From positions 558,001 to 622,000 of the forward strand of contig NZ_LT160640.1 in the NCBI RefSeq assembly GCF_900048895.1: 64,000 bases of DNA, given 5' to 3'. Positions 17,027-50,808 of the stretch are shown piece by piece. The stretch is from Neglectibacter timonensis (GTDB taxonomy: Bacteria; Bacillota; Clostridia; Oscillospirales; Acutalibacteraceae). Position 1 is the stretch's first letter, and each line of letters begins with the position of its first letter. The translations under genes were made by a program, and so were the position numbers. The notes beneath the pieces are model-generated. The model saw only the letters and a program-made list of their open reading frames with translations, had not been told where the DNA came from and ran no database searches.

Positions 17027-17899
17027 ATGCCAGCATGTTTAACACATTATCAATTTGCCAGGAAGGTATTGACGGAACTTCCAGCGCAAGATAAGGAAAA
17101 CCTGAACTCCTGTGCCTTTTATTGGGGTGCGCAGGGGCCGGATTTTTTCTTTTGCCACCGCTATTTCCCCTGGATGAAGGGAAAATCTCTCAAGGAATAT
17201 GGCAATAAGCTGCACGGGACAAAACCTTCTCTTACATTCAGCGCTCTGCGGGATTTTTTGGTCCGCCACAGTGATCCTGTCTACCGCTCCTATGTGATGG
17301 GATTTCTCTGTCACTATGCGCTGGACTCCACCGCGCATCCCTATATCAACGCCTTTGCAGAGACACTTTTGAGAGAACGGCCCTATGAGACCCATACTAC
17401 GTTGCACGGTGAGATCGAAGCCGCTCTGGATGCCATCGTCCTGCGCCGTGAAACCGGGCTTCTCCCAAACGAAGTCAATCTCAAGCATATGTTTCCGAAA
17501 AACGAGGCCGTACAGAGAAGGATTGCAAAGCTTTTCCGGCATGTGCTTTTCGAAGTATACCATGTGGATGTGAAGGAAGAAGAGCTGCTGCGGGCAACCC
17601 GGGATGCCCATTTTGTCTTTGCGTGTCTGACGGATCGTACCACCTTGAAGAAAAAATTGTTTGACGCCCTGGAGAAAGGGAAGCCCCACTATGTCTCCTC
17701 CCATATCGTGCCGATGACAGAGACCGCCGACATTGATTATGCCAATCTGCAGGGGGAAGAATGGAATTCGGGAGAGGGAACTTCCCAACAGAGCTTTTTT
17801 GATCTGTTTGAAGAGGCTATGGGAAAAGCCGTAATTTTGATTACAAACTTTGAGCATGGTGACTTTGCTGAGCTTACTCAGGAAAAGCCATTCGGATAA
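17027..17899 (+). CDS. Zinc-dependent phospholipase C-like protein
   Basis: 290 residues similar to the zinc phospholipase C/S1-P1 nuclease fold family (PF00882 type). Seen: THYQFARKVL near the N terminus, GAQGPDFFF, and GFLCHYALDSTAHPYINAF with His and Asp residues placed as metal ligands, then HTTLHGEIEAALD. No signal peptide is evident, so it may act in the cytoplasm. Proteins of this type are common and uncharacterised in Clostridia. It begins 15 bases after the pseudouridine synthase gene, with AGGAGG upstream, and ends at a terminator. Confidence 0.75.
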   Translation: MPACLTHYQFARKVLTELPAQDKENLNSCAFYWGAQGPDFFFCHRYFPWMKGKSLKEYGNKLHGTKPSLTFSALRDFLVRHSDPVYRSYVMGFLCHYALDSTAHPYINAFAETLLRERPYETHTTLHGEIEAALDAIVLRRETGLLPNEVNLKHMFPKNEAVQRRIAKLFRHVLFEVYHVDVKEEELLRATRDAHFVFACLTDRTTLKKKLFDALEKGKPHYVSSHIVPMTETADIDYANLQGEEWNSGEGTSQQSFFDLFEEAMGKAVILITNFEHGDFAELTQEKPFG

Positions 17900-17915
17900 G
17901 CAATTTTCACAAAGG

Positions 17916-17959
17916 CAGGCCACAGCGGCTGGACAAGGAGCGCTGTGGTCTGTTTTTTT
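17916..17959 (+). terminator. Terminator of the nusB-ispA operon
   Basis: CAG-CCACAGCG pairs with CGCTGTGG-CTG around a 13-base loop and is followed by T7. It separates the housekeeping operon from the accessory triad downstream. Confidence 0.8.
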
Positions 17960-17981
17960 GCCATATAACTTGAAATAATAG

Positions 17982-18010
17982 TTGCGTTTTTTGAAAAGAT
18001 AAGCTACTAT
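17982..18010 (+). promoter_or_regulatory. Candidate promoter of the TerB/BrxD/helicase triad
   Basis: TTGCGT, 17-base spacer, TACTAT, about 50 bases upstream of ATG 18064 and just after the terminator, so the triad appears to have its own promoter. Confidence 0.45.
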
Positions 18011-18063
18011 AAACATATGTTCTATCTGACACAGAAGAAAAACTCTGGGAGAGGAGGAGCGGT

Positions 18064-19629
18064 ATGCTCTGGAACTGGCAGAATGAAGATCGGGAAGATC
18101 CTTTTGCCGAAATTTATATGGAAAGCCGTTCTGAGGAAGCAGAACATCCGCCGGTCCCCCAAAAATTGGAGTATCCCGAACCGGAAGCCGAGGAAATTCG
18201 CGGCCTTTTTCTTAAAATGAGGCATTTGGGAGACCGGTACAGACGCTTTGATCAGTATTACAATACCAGCCAAGCTCTGGTTTTCTGTAAACAAGCGGAG
18301 TTTATGGTCAAGTTTGAAGATGATTATCCGGAAAATGCGGAATTCTCCATGTATTTTCCTGACTATCAACGGATGGGCTACCGACAGCTGAGGACCTATT
18401 TTACCTGGCGCAGTAAGGTCCGCCAGGGTCAGATAATGCGAACGTCCTTTTCCTATGTCTTTCTTTACCTTTATGAGCTAATCAATAATATCGGCGTAGA
18501 AAGTGGAGAAGACGGCCTGGAAAAGCTTTTGTATCTGTGGGAGGCATACCGTGTCTATGAGCCAAAGCTCGATAAATATGCAGCCGGGTGGGTAAAGGAT
18601 TATTATATTGTCAACAGCCCGCCGTTTTCTTTTGACGATTTGATTCAGAAGTATCCAGTGCTGCAGGAATTCTATGCGCCTTCCCGGATGTCAGATTTTT
18701 ATGACCAGTTTGCTTCTCTTTCTGCATACAAGCCCGAAAAGTCGAGCTTTTGCCAGACTTATAAAATGGAGCCCAAACTTCGTGACTGCTTCAATCATGT
18801 GATGGAAAGCCTTTCCCGGTGGCTGGAAGAAAACGGGATTCAACTGGAGGACATGTTTTATTACCGGCACAAGGGCAGTCCCTGGAAACCCTTTTCCAAA
18901 GCTCTTTACCTTCCTCTTGCCAGTGATCGGGAAAAGGTTAAAACTGTTCGGATTTCCGATACTGAGCTGTATTGGTGCAGAGATGGAAAATGGACCACTT
19001 CCGGAAAAAGAATTTGCAGGGCGAACAGCCGTCAGATCATCGAGTACATGATCAGGCGGATTGAGCAGTTTTACCGCAGAGTATCCCAGTATAAACGGAA
19101 ACTTGCTGCGGATCGAAACAAAATCGAACTTTCGGCATGGATGAAACTTCCCGGCGGCGATAACAGCTTTTTTTCCCGAATTGATACGGCGATTCTGGAT
19201 TATTATCGGGATTCTCAAAGAATATCCGTCACAGTGGATCCCCGCCGGTTAAACGAAATTCGGGCAAATGCATTGCTCATCCAGGAAAAACTGTTGTCCG
19301 GCATGGAAAATGAACCTGAAACGCCGCCCGCAAGGATGCAGGTCACCCCGGTACCTGTGCCGGAACTTGATTTGGACGGCAGCTGCTGGCAGCGCCTGAT
19401 TCGCAGTTTGAATAAGACAGAACAAGAGGCCCTGAAATTGATTCTGAACGGCAGTGCAGGAAATGAACTGCTTTCTTTTGCCCAGAACGATGGAATTATG
19501 CCGGAAGTTCTTGTGGACAGTCTCAATGAAAAAGCGCTGGAGGCTGTGGGAGATAACATTATCGAGCTGTCTGACACCGTAAAGGTTTTTGAGGAGTATC
19601 AGGAAGAATTGGAAAGGGTGTTTTTTTAG
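18064..19629 (+). CDS. TerB-N/TerB-C domain protein
   Basis: 521 residues. The N-terminal half (about residues 20-240) matches the TerB-N domain, best seen in GYRQLRTYFTWRSKVRQG (105-122) followed by YVFLYLYELINNIG; the last third (about 380-515), including RRLNEIRANALLIQEKLL, looks like TerB-C. No central TerB domain and no enzymatic motif were recognised. TerB-family proteins are linked with membrane or DNA-associated stress and phage-resistance complexes; the name does not prove tellurite resistance. GGAGGAG precedes ATG 18064. The stop TAG overlaps the GTG of the next gene by one base, right after a run of seven T. Confidence 0.75.
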   Translation: MLWNWQNEDREDPFAEIYMESRSEEAEHPPVPQKLEYPEPEAEEIRGLFLKMRHLGDRYRRFDQYYNTSQALVFCKQAEFMVKFEDDYPENAEFSMYFPDYQRMGYRQLRTYFTWRSKVRQGQIMRTSFSYVFLYLYELINNIGVESGEDGLEKLLYLWEAYRVYEPKLDKYAAGWVKDYYIVNSPPFSFDDLIQKYPVLQEFYAPSRMSDFYDQFASLSAYKPEKSSFCQTYKMEPKLRDCFNHVMESLSRWLEENGIQLEDMFYYRHKGSPWKPFSKALYLPLASDREKVKTVRISDTELYWCRDGKWTTSGKRICRANSRQIIEYMIRRIEQFYRRVSQYKRKLAADRNKIELSAWMKLPGGDNSFFSRIDTAILDYYRDSQRISVTVDPRRLNEIRANALLIQEKLLSGMENEPETPPARMQVTPVPVPELDLDGSCWQRLIRSLNKTEQEALKLILNGSAGNELLSFAQNDGIMPEVLVDSLNEKALEAVGDNIIELSDTVKVFEEYQEELERVFF

Positions 19630-20936
19630 TGAAACAGAACAATCCGCCCAAACGGATTACCAGTACCATTCTCAACGCCCTGAAAGGCGGTGTGGTACCC
19701 AGAGTTGGCTTGGAATATGTTGCCGTAGGGCGCGATAAGGAAATAGACGCGCTTCTGCATGATATCGGTATTATCGCTGACGGCGGCGCTTCTTTTCGAT
19801 TTATCGTGGGAAAATATGGAAGCGGAAAGAGCTTTCTGCTGCAAACGATACGCAACTACGCCACTGACCGGAACTTTGTGGTGGTGGACGCAGACCTCTC
19901 TCCGGAGCGGCGTTTCGTCGGAACCAAAGGGCAGGGCCTTGCCACATACCGGGAATTGATCAAGAATATGTCCACCAAAACAAAACCGGACGGCGGCGCC
20001 TTGCCGCTGATTCTTGAACGTTGGATTTCCTCAATTAAAACGGCTGTTGCCAATGAAGAAGGGCCTGCGGCTGATGAACTGCTGTTCGATCGTCTGGTCG
20101 AACAGCGAATCCGCAGGGTGATCGGAGAGTTGGAGGGAATGGTGAATGGATTTGAGTTTTCCAAAGCCATTCTGCTCTATTATAAAGCCTACCGGCAGCT
20201 GGATGACCCATTGAAGTCCAAAGTCATTCAGTGGTTTCGGGGAGAATATCCTACGAAAACGGAGGCTAAGCGGGATTTGGACCTGAACTTTATTGTGAAC
20301 GATGACAACTGGTATGATTTTTTAAAACTGTTCGCTTCCTTTTTAGTTGGCGCCGGCTACCATGGAATGCTGGTTATCATTGATGAACTTGTGAATCTCT
20401 ACAAAATTCCGCAATCAATTACAAGGCAGAGTAATTATGAAAAAATTCTTACGATGTACAACGATGTCTTGCAAGGAAAAGCCAGCCATATCGGTTTTCT
20501 GCTGGGCGGAACGCCGCAGTGCATTGAGGATAAATACCGGGGCGTCTTCAGTTATGAAGCGCTCCGTTCCAGATTGTCGGAAGGGCGGTTTGCTACAGAA
20601 TCGGTCAAAGACCTTTTGTCCCCCATCATCCGGCTGAGCATGTTGACCCATGATGAGATGTATGTACTGATCGAAAAGCTGATGCAGATGCACGGTCAGT
20701 TATTTGAGTACGAGCCTGAATTTTCTCAGGAGGAACTGCTTCGCTTTTTGGATGTGGAATATAATCGGGTAGGAGCCCAAAGCCACATCACGCCCCGGGA
20801 GATCATTCGTGATTTCATAGAGCTTCTGAACATTCTTCTTCAAAATCCCGGAGAGGATATGGAGCAAATTCTTTCCAACTTTGCTACGCCTGAACTGCCC
20901 GGGGAAGCCGACGGTTTTTTGGAATTTGAGATATAA
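19629..20936 (+). CDS. BrxC/BrxD-type P-loop ATPase (DUF2791)
   Basis: 435 residues. The N terminus KRITSTILNALKGGVVPRVG leads into Walker A GKYGSGKS (61-68); Walker B is VIIDELVNLY (Asp252, Glu253), then LLGGTPQCIED as a sensor-like segment, an Arg-rich stretch, and a C-terminal helical part with ITPREIIRDFIELL. This is the DUF2791 family that includes BrxD of type 2 BREX phage-defence loci. GTG 19629 overlaps the TerB-protein stop. No methylase, PglZ-type phosphatase or PglW-type kinase is nearby, so it is not a BREX locus; it probably works with the adjacent helicase. Confidence 0.8.
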   Translation: MKQNNPPKRITSTILNALKGGVVPRVGLEYVAVGRDKEIDALLHDIGIIADGGASFRFIVGKYGSGKSFLLQTIRNYATDRNFVVVDADLSPERRFVGTKGQGLATYRELIKNMSTKTKPDGGALPLILERWISSIKTAVANEEGPAADELLFDRLVEQRIRRVIGELEGMVNGFEFSKAILLYYKAYRQLDDPLKSKVIQWFRGEYPTKTEAKRDLDLNFIVNDDNWYDFLKLFASFLVGAGYHGMLVIIDELVNLYKIPQSITRQSNYEKILTMYNDVLQGKASHIGFLLGGTPQCIEDKYRGVFSYEALRSRLSEGRFATESVKDLLSPIIRLSMLTHDEMYVLIEKLMQMHGQLFEYEPEFSQEELLRFLDVEYNRVGAQSHITPREIIRDFIELLNILLQNPGEDMEQILSNFATPELPGEADGFLEFEI

Positions 20937-21033
20937 CGATTGAGTTATAGAGACGAGGGAGATATTTTGCTTTCCACAGGATGAATGACATCGGAGCTTT
21001 TGGGATTTTGAGTTCGGTAAGGGAGGAGAAAGC

Positions 21034-23217
21034 ATGACAGACGTTTTCAGCCGTTTGGCGCCTTATATTCAGGACTATATCTATGCAAACCGCTGGACAG
21101 AACTGCGCGATATCCAGACAGCAGCTTGCCAGGTCATCTTTGAAACAGACGATAATCTCTTGCTTTCCTCAGGCACTGCTTCAGGAAAAACAGAGGCTGC
21201 GTTTCTACCTGTGTTGACAGAGCTTTACCGGAAGCCGTCCCGTTCTGTGGGCGTTTTGTACATCAGTCCGCTGAAGGCTTTGATCAACGATCAGTTTAAA
21301 CGGCTGGATCAGCTGCTGCTGGAATCCGGTCTGCCGGTGTGTAAATGGCACGGAGATGCTTCTGCTGCAGAGAAAGAAAGGCTCTTAAAGCATCCGGATG
21401 GAATTTTACAAATCACGCCGGAATCACTTGAATCTCTGCTGATTCGCAAAAAGGGTTCCTGTTATGAGCTCTTTCGGGATCTGCGTTATATTATCATCGA
21501 TGAAGTTCATTATTTTATGAGGGATGTGCGCGGTATCCAAGTGCTCTGTCTGCTGGAAAGACTCCAGCGGCTGACTGGAACGATTCCGCGGCGTATCGGC
21601 CTGTCTGCGACCCTAGGGGATTTGGAAGCAGCTAAGACCTGGCTGAATTGCGGAACGATCCGTACATGTTCTGCGCCGTCCGGAGAAGCAGGCAGGCAAA
21701 AGATTCGTCTGCTGGTACAGCGGTTCGAACGAAAAGGAACCGCTGACAACGGTGCTCTGGATCCCGGAGACCAGGAACATTTTGAATATCTGTATCGTAT
21801 GACGTTGGATAAAAAGACCATCCTTTTCACCAACTCCCGAGAGGAGACCGAGTTCGTACTGGCCAATTTGAGACAGATTGCTCTGAAACACCGGACTCCT
21901 GACATATACCGGGTCCATCATGGAAATATCTCCGCAGTTTTGAGAGAACAAACGGAAGATGAAATGAAAACAGGGGAGGAGAAAATCGTCACCGGCGCTA
22001 CGGTGACTCTGGAACTGGGAATTGATATCGGCTCTCTGGATCAGGTGGTACAGGTGGGAACTCCAGCTACGGTATCAAGCTTTGCACAGCGTCTGGGCCG
22101 CTGCGGCAGGAGGGGACAGGTTCCGCAGATCCTGTTCACCCTAATGGACGATGTGCACGCCGCAGCTACAGATACCCTGGGGCCCATCAACTGGGCCTTC
22201 CTGAGAATCATTGCCATCATCGAACTCTATACAAAACAGCGTTGGGTGGAACCCCTTGTTCCCAGCAAGTATCCTTATTCTCTGCTGTATCATCAGACTA
22301 TGAGCACGCTGTTGTCCTCGGGAGAACTACCAGCTAAAAGGCTGGCGGAAAGCGTGCTGAATCTTCAGTGCTTTCGCTGGATATCTCAGGAGGACTACCT
22401 TTTGCTGCTTCGGCATCTGCTGGAAATCGGCCATCTACAGCGCATGGAGGACGGCGGTTTGATCATTGGCAGAGAAGGAGAAAAGGTAGTGAACGACTAT
22501 CGGTTTCTCTCTGTTTTTCTGGTGCCGGAGTATTATTTGGTCAAGGATGAAAACCGGGCAATCGGCACGGTAGATAAAATTTATCCGCCGGAAACCAGGT
22601 TTTCCCTCGCAGGCAGAACCTGGGAAACTGTGGAAGTAAACGAAAAGTCAAAAGTGATTTTTGTAAAACCGGTTTCGGGAATCTCTACAGTGGACTGGAA
22701 TGTAAATTTCACGGCTGATTTGCACACCGTGCTGGTACAAAAGCTGAGGAGTATTCTACTCAGCGACGACAGCTACCCTTATCTGAGCGATTCCTGCAGG
22801 GAGAGGCTGACGGAAATCCGCAATTTGGCCCGTAACTCCGGAATCCTTACAAAGCTTGTCACACAGCTATCAGAAAACAAGTATGCCGTTTTCCCCTGGA
22901 TTGGGACACGGGAGTTGTTTACCCTGCATTTTCTGCTGCTGCAGCGGGGAATCAAAAGCAAAATACTTTGGCGGACTTGTGTGTATTTGGAAGTTACTTT
23001 CAGCGGGCACGTTAGGGATGCCGCCGAGCTGATTCAGGAGGCCATCCAAGATGTTCTTGCCGCTACAGAGAGCCTTTCGGAGCTGCCTTTGCCTGATAAG
23101 GTGCAGATAGAACACAAGTATAATGAATTTATTCCTCCGGTACTGCTCCGGAAAGAATTTGTAGAGGATTTTCTGGATCTGGACGGATTAAAAAAAGGCC
23201 TGATTCTGGAAAACTGA
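21034..23217 (+). CDS. Lhr-like/BrxHI-type DEAD/DEAH-box helicase
   Basis: 727 residues, superfamily 2. Motif Q region RDIQTAA, Walker A GTASGKTE (47-54), motif II DEVH (156-159), motif III LSAT (about 190), and motif VI QRLGRCGRRG (from 352) are intact. After the two RecA domains there is a winged-helix-like region and the segment FSLAGRTWETVEVNEKSK, typical of Lhr-like and BREX-associated BrxHI helicases. TAAGGGAGGAG precedes ATG 21034, 97 bases after the ATPase gene. The pairing of such a helicase with a BrxD-type ATPase recurs in type 2 BREX; here a TerB protein takes the place of the other components. Confidence 0.85.
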   Translation: MTDVFSRLAPYIQDYIYANRWTELRDIQTAACQVIFETDDNLLLSSGTASGKTEAAFLPVLTELYRKPSRSVGVLYISPLKALINDQFKRLDQLLLESGLPVCKWHGDASAAEKERLLKHPDGILQITPESLESLLIRKKGSCYELFRDLRYIIIDEVHYFMRDVRGIQVLCLLERLQRLTGTIPRRIGLSATLGDLEAAKTWLNCGTIRTCSAPSGEAGRQKIRLLVQRFERKGTADNGALDPGDQEHFEYLYRMTLDKKTILFTNSREETEFVLANLRQIALKHRTPDIYRVHHGNISAVLREQTEDEMKTGEEKIVTGATVTLELGIDIGSLDQVVQVGTPATVSSFAQRLGRCGRRGQVPQILFTLMDDVHAAATDTLGPINWAFLRIIAIIELYTKQRWVEPLVPSKYPYSLLYHQTMSTLLSSGELPAKRLAESVLNLQCFRWISQEDYLLLLRHLLEIGHLQRMEDGGLIIGREGEKVVNDYRFLSVFLVPEYYLVKDENRAIGTVDKIYPPETRFSLAGRTWETVEVNEKSKVIFVKPVSGISTVDWNVNFTADLHTVLVQKLRSILLSDDSYPYLSDSCRERLTEIRNLARNSGILTKLVTQLSENKYAVFPWIGTRELFTLHFLLLQRGIKSKILWRTCVYLEVTFSGHVRDAAELIQEAIQDVLAATESLSELPLPDKVQIEHKYNEFIPPVLLRKEFVEDFLDLDGLKKGLILEN

Positions 23218-23242
23218 ATACGGGGAACAGGATATACACAAA

Positions 23243-23287
23243 AAACAAAACCGTCAAGACTGAAAGTTCAGTCCTAACGGTTTTGTT
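23243..23287. terminator. Bidirectional terminator between helicase and rpmB
   Basis: AACAAAACCGT pairs with ACGGTTTTGTT, with an inner ACTGAA/TTCAGT stem. On the minus strand it is followed by a long T-rich tract; it ends rpmB and can also end the triad. Confidence 0.8.
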
Positions 23288-23305
23288 CATTCGCCAAATG
23301 AATTC

Positions 23306-23494
23306 TTATATTGCTCTTGTCACCTTGCCGGAACGCAAGCAACGGGTGCAGGCGTACACGCGCTTCGGAGTACCATTGACGATTGCTTTCACACGCTTAA
23401 TGTTCGGCTTCCAAGTTCTGTTGGAACGCCTGTGCGAGTGGGAAACTTTAATACCGAAGGAAACATCCTTACCGCAAATATCACATTTTGCCAT
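23306..23494 (-). CDS. rpmB: 50S ribosomal protein L28
   Basis: 62 residues, full length. CDICGKD and YACTRCLRSGKV give the four-Cys zinc-binding version of L28; SHSHRRSNRTWKPNIKR is the family core. AAGGAGG lies 8 bases before ATG. It is transcribed alone from a strong promoter on the minus strand, divergent from the M50 protease gene. In Bacillus rpmB lies next to spoVM, which here is 19 kb away. Confidence 0.96.
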   Translation of the reverse strand: MAKCDICGKDVSFGIKVSHSHRRSNRTWKPNIKRVKAIVNGTPKRVYACTRCLRSGKVTRAI

Positions 23495-23542
23495 ATCTGC
23501 ACCTCCTTAAATCGAGTAACTCTCAAATTTGCAACAATCAGA

Positions 23543-23571
23543 ATTATAGCAGATGAAATCTTAAAAAGCAA
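23543..23571 (-). promoter_or_regulatory. Sigma-A promoter of rpmB
   Basis: On the minus strand TTGCTT, 17-base spacer ending TGC (extended -10), perfect TATAAT. Confidence 0.75.
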
Positions 23572-23588
23572 GTTTTTTTTGAAAGGAA

Positions 23589-23617
23589 TTGTCTTTTTCT
23601 TTCAGATGGTTTATAAT
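23589..23617 (+). promoter_or_regulatory. Sigma-A promoter of the M50-scpAB operon
   Basis: TTGTCT, 17-base spacer, perfect TATAAT, 25 bases upstream of ATG 23643. Confidence 0.7.
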
Positions 23618-49551: not shown

Positions 49552-49578
49552 AAAAGGGACAAGTTTTGTCCCTTTTTT
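49552..49578 (+). terminator. Terminator after rplS
   Basis: AAAAGGGACAA, three-base loop, TTGTCCCTTTTTT: a perfect stem with a T tract. Confidence 0.9.
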
Positions 49579-49609
49579 GCTATTATTTTTCAGTTTGGAG
49601 AAACGTCTT

Positions 49610-50191
49610 ATGAATGTGGAAACAGTGGAGAGCTGTGCCCAAAGCGGTCCGGGAAAGGGCTCCAGAATTATTTTGGAATGGATCGAAGAACTTGTGATTG
49701 CTGTCGTATTGATTGCTGTGGTTTTCACCTTTCTCTTCCGCATTATTACTGTCACCGGCACCTCTATGATACCCAATTATAATGACGGCGACCGTGTTCT
49801 CGTGGTGAGCAATCCCTTTCAAATCGGCCAGGGCGATGTTGTAGTCATTATCAACGTACTTGAGGAACCCATTATCAAGCGCGTTATTGCCACGGAAGGG
49901 CAAACGGTAGACTTTGATCCGGAAAGTAAAGCTGTTTTGGTGAACGGACAACCGGTTGATGAGACAGAATTCGGACTTTCCAATGGGATGACCGATCTTC
50001 CTTATACTTCCTTTGAAATTTTAGAATTCCCGCAGACAGTTCCGGAAGGCTGCGTTTTTGTTTTGGGAGATAACCGTGCGGTATCAGAGGACAGCCGCTA
50101 TAAAATAGTCGGGATGATTGATGAACGCAATATTCTTGGAAAGGCTGTTTTTAATATTTTCCCCTTTTCCAAAATTGGTCCGGCAAATTAA
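49610..50191 (+). CDS. lepB: Type I signal peptidase (first copy)
   Basis: 193 residues: one N-terminal membrane span (VIAVVLIAVVFTFLFRII) and the Ser-Lys dyad enzyme with TGTSMIP (nucleophile Ser), IIKRVIATEGQTV (general base Lys) and VLGDNRAVSEDSR. It cleaves signal peptides on the outer face of the membrane. ATG 49610 follows TTGGAGAAACG. A close paralogue lies immediately downstream. Confidence 0.93.
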   Translation: MNVETVESCAQSGPGKGSRIILEWIEELVIAVVLIAVVFTFLFRIITVTGTSMIPNYNDGDRVLVVSNPFQIGQGDVVVIINVLEEPIIKRVIATEGQTVDFDPESKAVLVNGQPVDETEFGLSNGMTDLPYTSFEILEFPQTVPEGCVFVLGDNRAVSEDSRYKIVGMIDERNILGKAVFNIFPFSKIGPAN

Positions 50192-50223
50192 GTTCCAAGG
50201 AAAGATCGAGGCGGTATCGTTAA

Positions 50224-50808
50224 ATGGATATAGAAAAGGAAAGTATCAGCGAACAAAAGTCATATCCTGATAAGACGGTAAAATCCGTGTTGGAATGGGT
50301 AGAAGAAATTGTGTTCGCTGTGGTTTTGATCGCCGTTATTTTCACTTTTATTGTTCGGATAATCACGGTGGACGGACGTTCTATGATGCCTACCTATCAT
50401 AATGGGGATCGGGTTTTGGTCAGCGGGCAGGCTGGAAAGCTGGCTCAGGGAGATATTGTAATCATAGTACACGCTTTAGAAGAACCCATTATCAAACGCG
50501 TCATTGCCACGGAAGGGCAAACGGTGGACTTCGATCGCGAACTTCGCGAAGTCACGATTGATGGAGTCCCTGTGGATGAAACAAAATATGGAGTCGAACC
50601 TGGTATTACGGAAGTGCCGGATTATCCAGGACAGATGCTGGAGTTTCCTCAGACAGTTCCGGAAGGCTGCGTTTTTGTGATGGGGGATAACCGTACCAAT
50701 TCAACCGACAGCCGTTTTAAGGAAGTGGGTATGGTAGACTGCCGCAATGTGTTGGGAAAAGTATTCTTTAATTTATACCCATTCTCCAATATGGGACCTG
50801 TATCCTAA
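50224..50808 (+). CDS. lepB: Type I signal peptidase (second, tandem copy)
   Basis: 194 residues with the same layout: membrane span (FAVVLIAVIFTFIVRII), DGRSMMPTYHNGDRVLVSG with the Ser, IIKRVIATEGQTVDFD with the Lys, and VMGDNRTNSTDSR. It is only 32 bases after the first copy and is likely co-transcribed. The catalytic-Lys region is nearly identical to the first copy at the DNA level, while the linkers differ, showing duplication and perhaps gene conversion. Confidence 0.93.
   Translation: MDIEKESISEQKSYPDKTVKSVLEWVEEIVFAVVLIAVIFTFIVRIITVDGRSMMPTYHNGDRVLVSGQAGKLAQGDIVIIVHALEEPIIKRVIATEGQTVDFDRELREVTIDGVPVDETKYGVEPGITEVPDYPGQMLEFPQTVPEGCVFVMGDNRTNSTDSRFKEVGMVDCRNVLGKVFFNLYPFSNMGPVS

Follow-up and report, generated by a model that had tools for sequence, protein, structure and literature searches.

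A horizontally acquired Shango (sngABC) cassette in Neglectibacter timonensis and its near-core, split relatives in a sister family

What is a module of three genes, encoding a TerB-domain protein, an ATPase and a superfamily 2 (SF2) helicase, doing beside rpmB in the chromosome of Neglectibacter timonensis? The window analysed here is a stretch of 64,000 nucleotides (RefSeq assembly GCF_900048895.1, contig NZ_LT160640.1, positions 558,001 to 622,000; coordinates below count from its first letter), in which a first-pass annotation had seen either a self-sufficient defence system of three genes, akin to parts of BREX, or a housekeeping function of Clostridia. Here, we report that the trio is almost certainly, on sequence evidence, a copy of the known anti-phage system Shango (sngABC), mobile in its own lineage and kept in a different form by a sister family, f21.

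The three genes are co-directional, and a check of the open reading frames (ORFs) found a one-base overlap between sngA and sngB:

18064..19629, + strand: sngA, TerB_N/TerB_C protein (ORF, 521 aa)
19629..20936, + strand: sngB, BrxC/BrxD-family AAA+ ATPase (ORF, 435 aa, GTG start)
21034..23217, + strand: sngC, SF2 helicase of the Lhr/BrxHI kind (ORF, 727 aa; DEAD and Helicase_C; motifs I, II, III and VI)

Pfam matched the sngA product to TerB_N (95.7 bits) and TerB_C (55.9 bits), the sngB product to BrxC_BrxD (536.9 bits; PF10923, presumably the former DUF2791) and the sngC product to DEAD (101.9 bits) and Helicase_C (59.4 bits). Walker A and Walker B motifs lie at residues 61 and 247 of SngB, and helicase motifs I, II, III and VI at residues 48, 156, 191 and 352 of SngC; ORFs, Pfam and motifs agree with the three intact, partly overlapping genes first described. 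The best PADLOC model for the sngA product was SngA (203 bits), the sngB product scored 604.5 bits on SngB versus 145.5 on BrxD, and the sngC product scored 736.6 bits on SngC versus 418.1 on BrxHI. We assign the trio to Shango because PADLOC names all three proteins SngA, SngB and SngC, with wide margins over the BREX models: it has a TerB-domain SngA, an SngB scoring above BrxD, an SngC scoring above BrxHI and an adjacent A-B-C order, and so resembles Shango in all three proteins, order, orientation and adjacency. The same naming ruled out an undescribed module; the proposed stand-alone defence system was supported, and is one already known. Of the 80 top-ranking named Shango loci, drawn from at least 586 candidates, 65 have A, B and C contiguous on a single strand; L199, whose SngA is in two pieces, was treated as having one SngA gene, and contig ends cut some of the 15 failures. 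SngA is the divergent part (mean column identity of 24% over 26 SngA). The SngA of L071, L072 and L077 carry an N-terminal extension of ~130 residues that is absent in window SngA and, in L071, has no Pfam match.

A degraded or minimal type 2 BREX system, left after loss of the methylase, PglZ and kinase, would explain why SngB falls in the BrxC_BrxD Pfam family and why SngC reaches 418 bits on the BrxHI model. Window SngB and SngC are homologous to BrxD and BrxHI, and an excerpt of PMC12278908 groups SngC with BrxHI, DruE and DpdJ in an SF2 clade that is potentially distinct. The absence of methylase, PglZ and kinase, as first noted, was confirmed in the trio and, by a PADLOC scan, among 10 neighbour proteins; the search went no further into the genome. 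However, SngB and SngC score far higher on the Shango models, and SngB falls under the cut-off of the NCBI BrxD model (149.8 versus 350 bits), which ruled out a BREX remnant; because the TerB-ATPase-helicase order recurs in those 65 of 80 named loci, the trio appears to be the usual unit, with nothing lost here. We consider a BREX remnant hardly credible.

Phage protection by the window trio is predicted from other Shango members, whose activity was established by others. Excerpts of PMC10250203 describe the Shango of Pseudomonas aeruginosa PA14 as a TerB-like protein, an ATPase and a helicase (the same three domain kinds as in the window), report that this trio cut plating 10- to 100-fold for many, but not all, phages and cite an earlier Escherichia coli Shango report (Millman 2022). 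Excerpts of other papers give the mechanism of Shango as unknown (PMC12926258, a review), report it from a megaplasmid and from genomic islands of E. coli (PMC10221251, PMC11096173) and note restriction-modification genes near Shango outside defence islands (PMC10924106). The present analysis, for its part, shows to which family the trio belongs, how its genes are ordered and that their motifs are present, and documents patchiness, empty sites and horizontal transfer.

Is the window copy a resident of its lineage? Of 29 genomes in the genus, 5 encode full-length SngB, as do 17 of 200 in the family; the window's genome is part of both samples, and a sixth genus match of 19 bits and an eighteenth family match, a fragment, were not counted. 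The flanking M50 gene was present in 27 of the 29 genus genomes, the window's own included, and the insertion site was retrieved in 20 of the 26 other M50-bearing genomes. At 11 of these 20 sites, PLC (a phospholipase C-like gene), rpmB and M50 were contiguous without Shango; the remaining nine had no detected PLC neighbour (six with rpmB, three without), and Sng genes were detected at none of the 20. All four Shango-bearing genus-mates were among the 11 with empty sites, so their copies (L071 to L074) lie elsewhere. Patchiness among relatives, which the first-pass annotation had proposed as a check, was therefore found.

Window SngB was 76 to 79% identical to copies from three other genera (G037, G059, G182, G199) and 59 to 70% identical to those of the four genus-mates, whereas PriA behaved in the opposite way (50 to 53% to those other-genus genomes, 43 to 55% across other genera, 65 to 68% to genus-mates). 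Across 105 genome pairs, rho was 0.83 between SngB and SngC identities and 0.07 between PriA and SngB. Trees for f1 were built from 15 of 21 carriers; of the six dropped, three lacked SngC and three had cut contigs. On the joint SngB-SngC tree (15 genomes), the approximately unbiased (AU) test rejected the genus as one clade (p 2.4e-55), and for the 15 genomes of the window's family the splits shared, out of 12, were 3 for SngB-PriA, 2 for SngC-PriA and 6 for SngB-SngC (no label shuffles). Serine-recombinase-like genes of one cluster stood near Shango in 5 of 20 genus and family loci versus 0 of 20 f21 loci; both members checked by Pfam had Resolvase and Recombinase domains. Among 72,556 plasmid records, 680 carry SngB-like matches and 540 of these are typed conjugative; two of the 680 were opened (Paenibacillus, Pantoea), and both held the entire trio, A-B-C on one strand. 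Searches for a prophage or virus origin were negative: 50,697 phage records yielded no match at E <= 1e-30, and none of 18 pattern matches on viral contigs was confirmed.

By sequence comparison, the window Shango is identified as a horizontally acquired mobile cassette in its own lineage, where patchiness, empty sites and the AU test rule out a housekeeping gene. A horizontally acquired Shango anti-phage cassette at the PLC-rpmB site is the reading that we favour overall, and we regard it as probable. The trio could instead act mainly on plasmids or conjugating DNA, as SngB-like genes sit on many conjugative plasmids, where it would suit the exclusion of rivals, and none of the literature excerpts mentioned an anti-plasmid assay of Shango; the published homologues, in the excerpts of PMC10250203, act on phages, and we judge a mainly anti-plasmid role quite improbable.

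Some loci depart from the usual arrangement. L082, L083 and L088 encode a TerB protein and SngB with no SngC detected nearby, the TerB protein of L083 having 923 aa and two TerB_N stretches. SngB and SngC are 1 to 6 kb apart, with other ORFs between them, in L171, L175, L200, L202 and L218, and the gap in L171 includes a 434-residue protein without a Pfam match. Tandem SngC-like helicase matches were seen at G338:C52:6354-10800 and G495:C374:59-4377.

The housekeeping alternative has more to draw on in f21, where SngC was found in 67 and SngB in 68 of 98 genomes (elsewhere, SngB in 12 of 22 in f17, SngC in 5 of 20 in f10 and SngC in 52 of 245 in the order). Both genes occurred together in 66 of the 98, SngC alone in 1, SngB alone in 2 and neither in 29. 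Within the 66, the two genes lay within 3 kb in 37, at 3.3 kb in 1 and on different contigs in 28, of which 23 were clearly unlinked and 5 (G482, G487, G498, G512, G516) may be assembly breaks. SngA adjoined SngB in 20 of 22 SngB loci from the different-contig genomes; SngC was detected in none of these 22 stretches, some of which end soon after SngB. Such SngA-SngB pairs with an unlinked SngC were seen in many genera (for example, L147 to L149, L157, L159, L160, L271 to L310). The pair lay near an alaS-like gene in 7 of the 22 loci, representing seven genera; in 4, from three genera, rbfA/nrnA/truB-like genes were close by (all these neighbours were named by eye). In aligned f21 columns, all 36 sequences retain Walker A and all 38 retain helicase motif III; in the other motifs, catalytic letters were kept in all variants among the matches listed.

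The f21 genes also follow the chromosome more closely. Genera with two genomes agreed on SngB presence in 24 of 28 cases, against a random mean of 14.9 (p 0.0003). PriA could be recovered from 29 of 30 genomes, and trees were built from 27 of the 29, G404 and G285 having been dropped after their divergence was noticed (SngB identity to the window, 71% and 57% versus 45 to 53% for other f21 copies; SngC, 71% and 43% versus 41 to 47%). SngB and SngC each shared 9 of 24 splits with PriA, and 8 with each other; label shuffles gave 0.2 shared splits on average and at most 3. Rank correlations with PriA were 0.32 (SngB) and 0.41 (SngC) with G404 and G285 included and 0.43 and 0.55 without them. Support for vertical inheritance of the Shango genes in f21 is good without being conclusive, as most shared splits are shallow and most genomes are drafts. 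Shango may have become, or may always have been, a core chromosomal function in f21, descending largely with the chromosome, with all three of its parts kept although the helicase gene left the operon and with SngA-SngB at shared positions in several genera; we take this to be entirely possible, if slightly the less probable case. Among the matches listed, open-access titles and abstract starts mentioned neither vertical nor split Shango.

The trio might be a housekeeping device of chromosome maintenance in Clostridia (for instance, repair or restart of damaged forks), its anti-phage effect being a by-product. Joint presence with frequent unlinking (23 of 66), splits shared with PriA and the alaS-like neighbourhood in f21 all speak for it, and in that family the refuting result foreseen by the first-pass annotation (the trio in almost every member, at one position, evolving as housekeeping genes do) was partly obtained, though not in the window's own genus and family. 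Against it, full-length copies are absent from 24 of 29 genus and 183 of 200 family genomes, where Shango is mobile, and 29 of 98 f21 genomes lack both SngB and SngC. We think this housekeeping role unlikely.

Returning to the mobile cassette of the window, it is a single insert in the chromosome next to rpmB; its borders lack a recombinase and are marked by the following features:

17027..17899, upstream of sngA: Zn-dependent phospholipase C-like gene (PLC; Pfam)
17915..17962, + strand: left border, an intrinsic terminator ending the upstream operon (RNA fold, T run)
23243..23288, no strand assigned: strong inverted repeat in the sngC/rpmB gap, terminator-like for rpmB, possibly for sngC
23306..23494, - strand: rpmB, downstream of sngC on the opposite strand

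Upstream lie nusB (12396), then xseA, xseB and ispA (these three named by eye), and beyond rpmB is the M50-type protease gene (named by eye). The trio had been placed between the nusB-ispA operon and rpmB; nusB and rpmB are both present, but an RluA-like gene and the PLC-like gene stand between ispA and sngA. Of the terminators claimed for both sides, the left one held, judged by RNA fold (-25.6 kcal/mol, z -3.9, then a T run); its loop is too long for the terminator scan. The right inverted repeat has a 20-pair stem (-21.6 kcal/mol, z -7.9; RNA fold) that the scan lists on the minus strand only, i.e., for rpmB; a role as sngC terminator is possible. The candidate promoter was not borne out, with 7 promoter-like sites versus 6.4 expected by chance and none within the gap at 17982-18063. 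No convincing target duplication was seen among 18 short direct-repeat families within 17850-23600, and the G+C content and GC3 of the trio match its neighbours, giving no support for recent foreign DNA. Elsewhere in the window, two adjoining genes at 49577-50808 resemble type I signal peptidases (by eye, from translations).

No defence-island setting was seen, as 0 of 10 neighbour proteins in the window matched a PADLOC model. A scan of neighbours across 36 named loci (227 ORFs, of which 122, from 21 loci, were scanned; no control set) gave Pfam matches mostly to ordinary genes, and among 25 listed of 49 PADLOC families only mad3 matched three members, the others one each.

How might the cassette work? 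SngB is an AAA+ ATPase whose fold may resemble those of the ORC/Cdc6 and TnsC ATPases, and the last ~80 residues of SngA were modelled, tentatively, like a winged helix; SngA had no significant sequence or fold match to solved structures, the part before residue 438 being barely tested. After arriving horizontally and inserting between the PLC-like gene, behind the nusB-ispA genes, and rpmB, the cassette would supply an SngA-SngB complex that binds DNA and detects some mark of DNA that is invading or abnormal. This complex would load or activate SngC, an ATP-driven helicase, which would strip such DNA or block its replication. Because Pfam finds no nuclease domain in the trio, a non-degradative block or the use of host nucleases seems likeliest. 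The scheme of DNA binding by SngA-SngB and loading or activation of SngC is tentative, and we would sooner expect it to need revision than to stand as drawn.

As a Shango member the window locus is ordinary, one more cassette gained by horizontal transfer whose site is empty in relatives; its f21 counterparts are not ordinary, and what surprises is that Shango there is near-core and split. The contrast within one order, mobile and rare in one family and near-core and split in another, may matter more than the locus itself. Both SngB and SngC are present in 66 of the 69 f21 genomes that carry at least one of them, clearly unlinked in 23, and f21 thereby offers a way to ask whether the parts of Shango must work together and what role Shango has apart from its action on phages. 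If the core reading of f21 is true, mobile cassettes like that of N. timonensis would be the travelling form of a resident DNA-surveillance machine.
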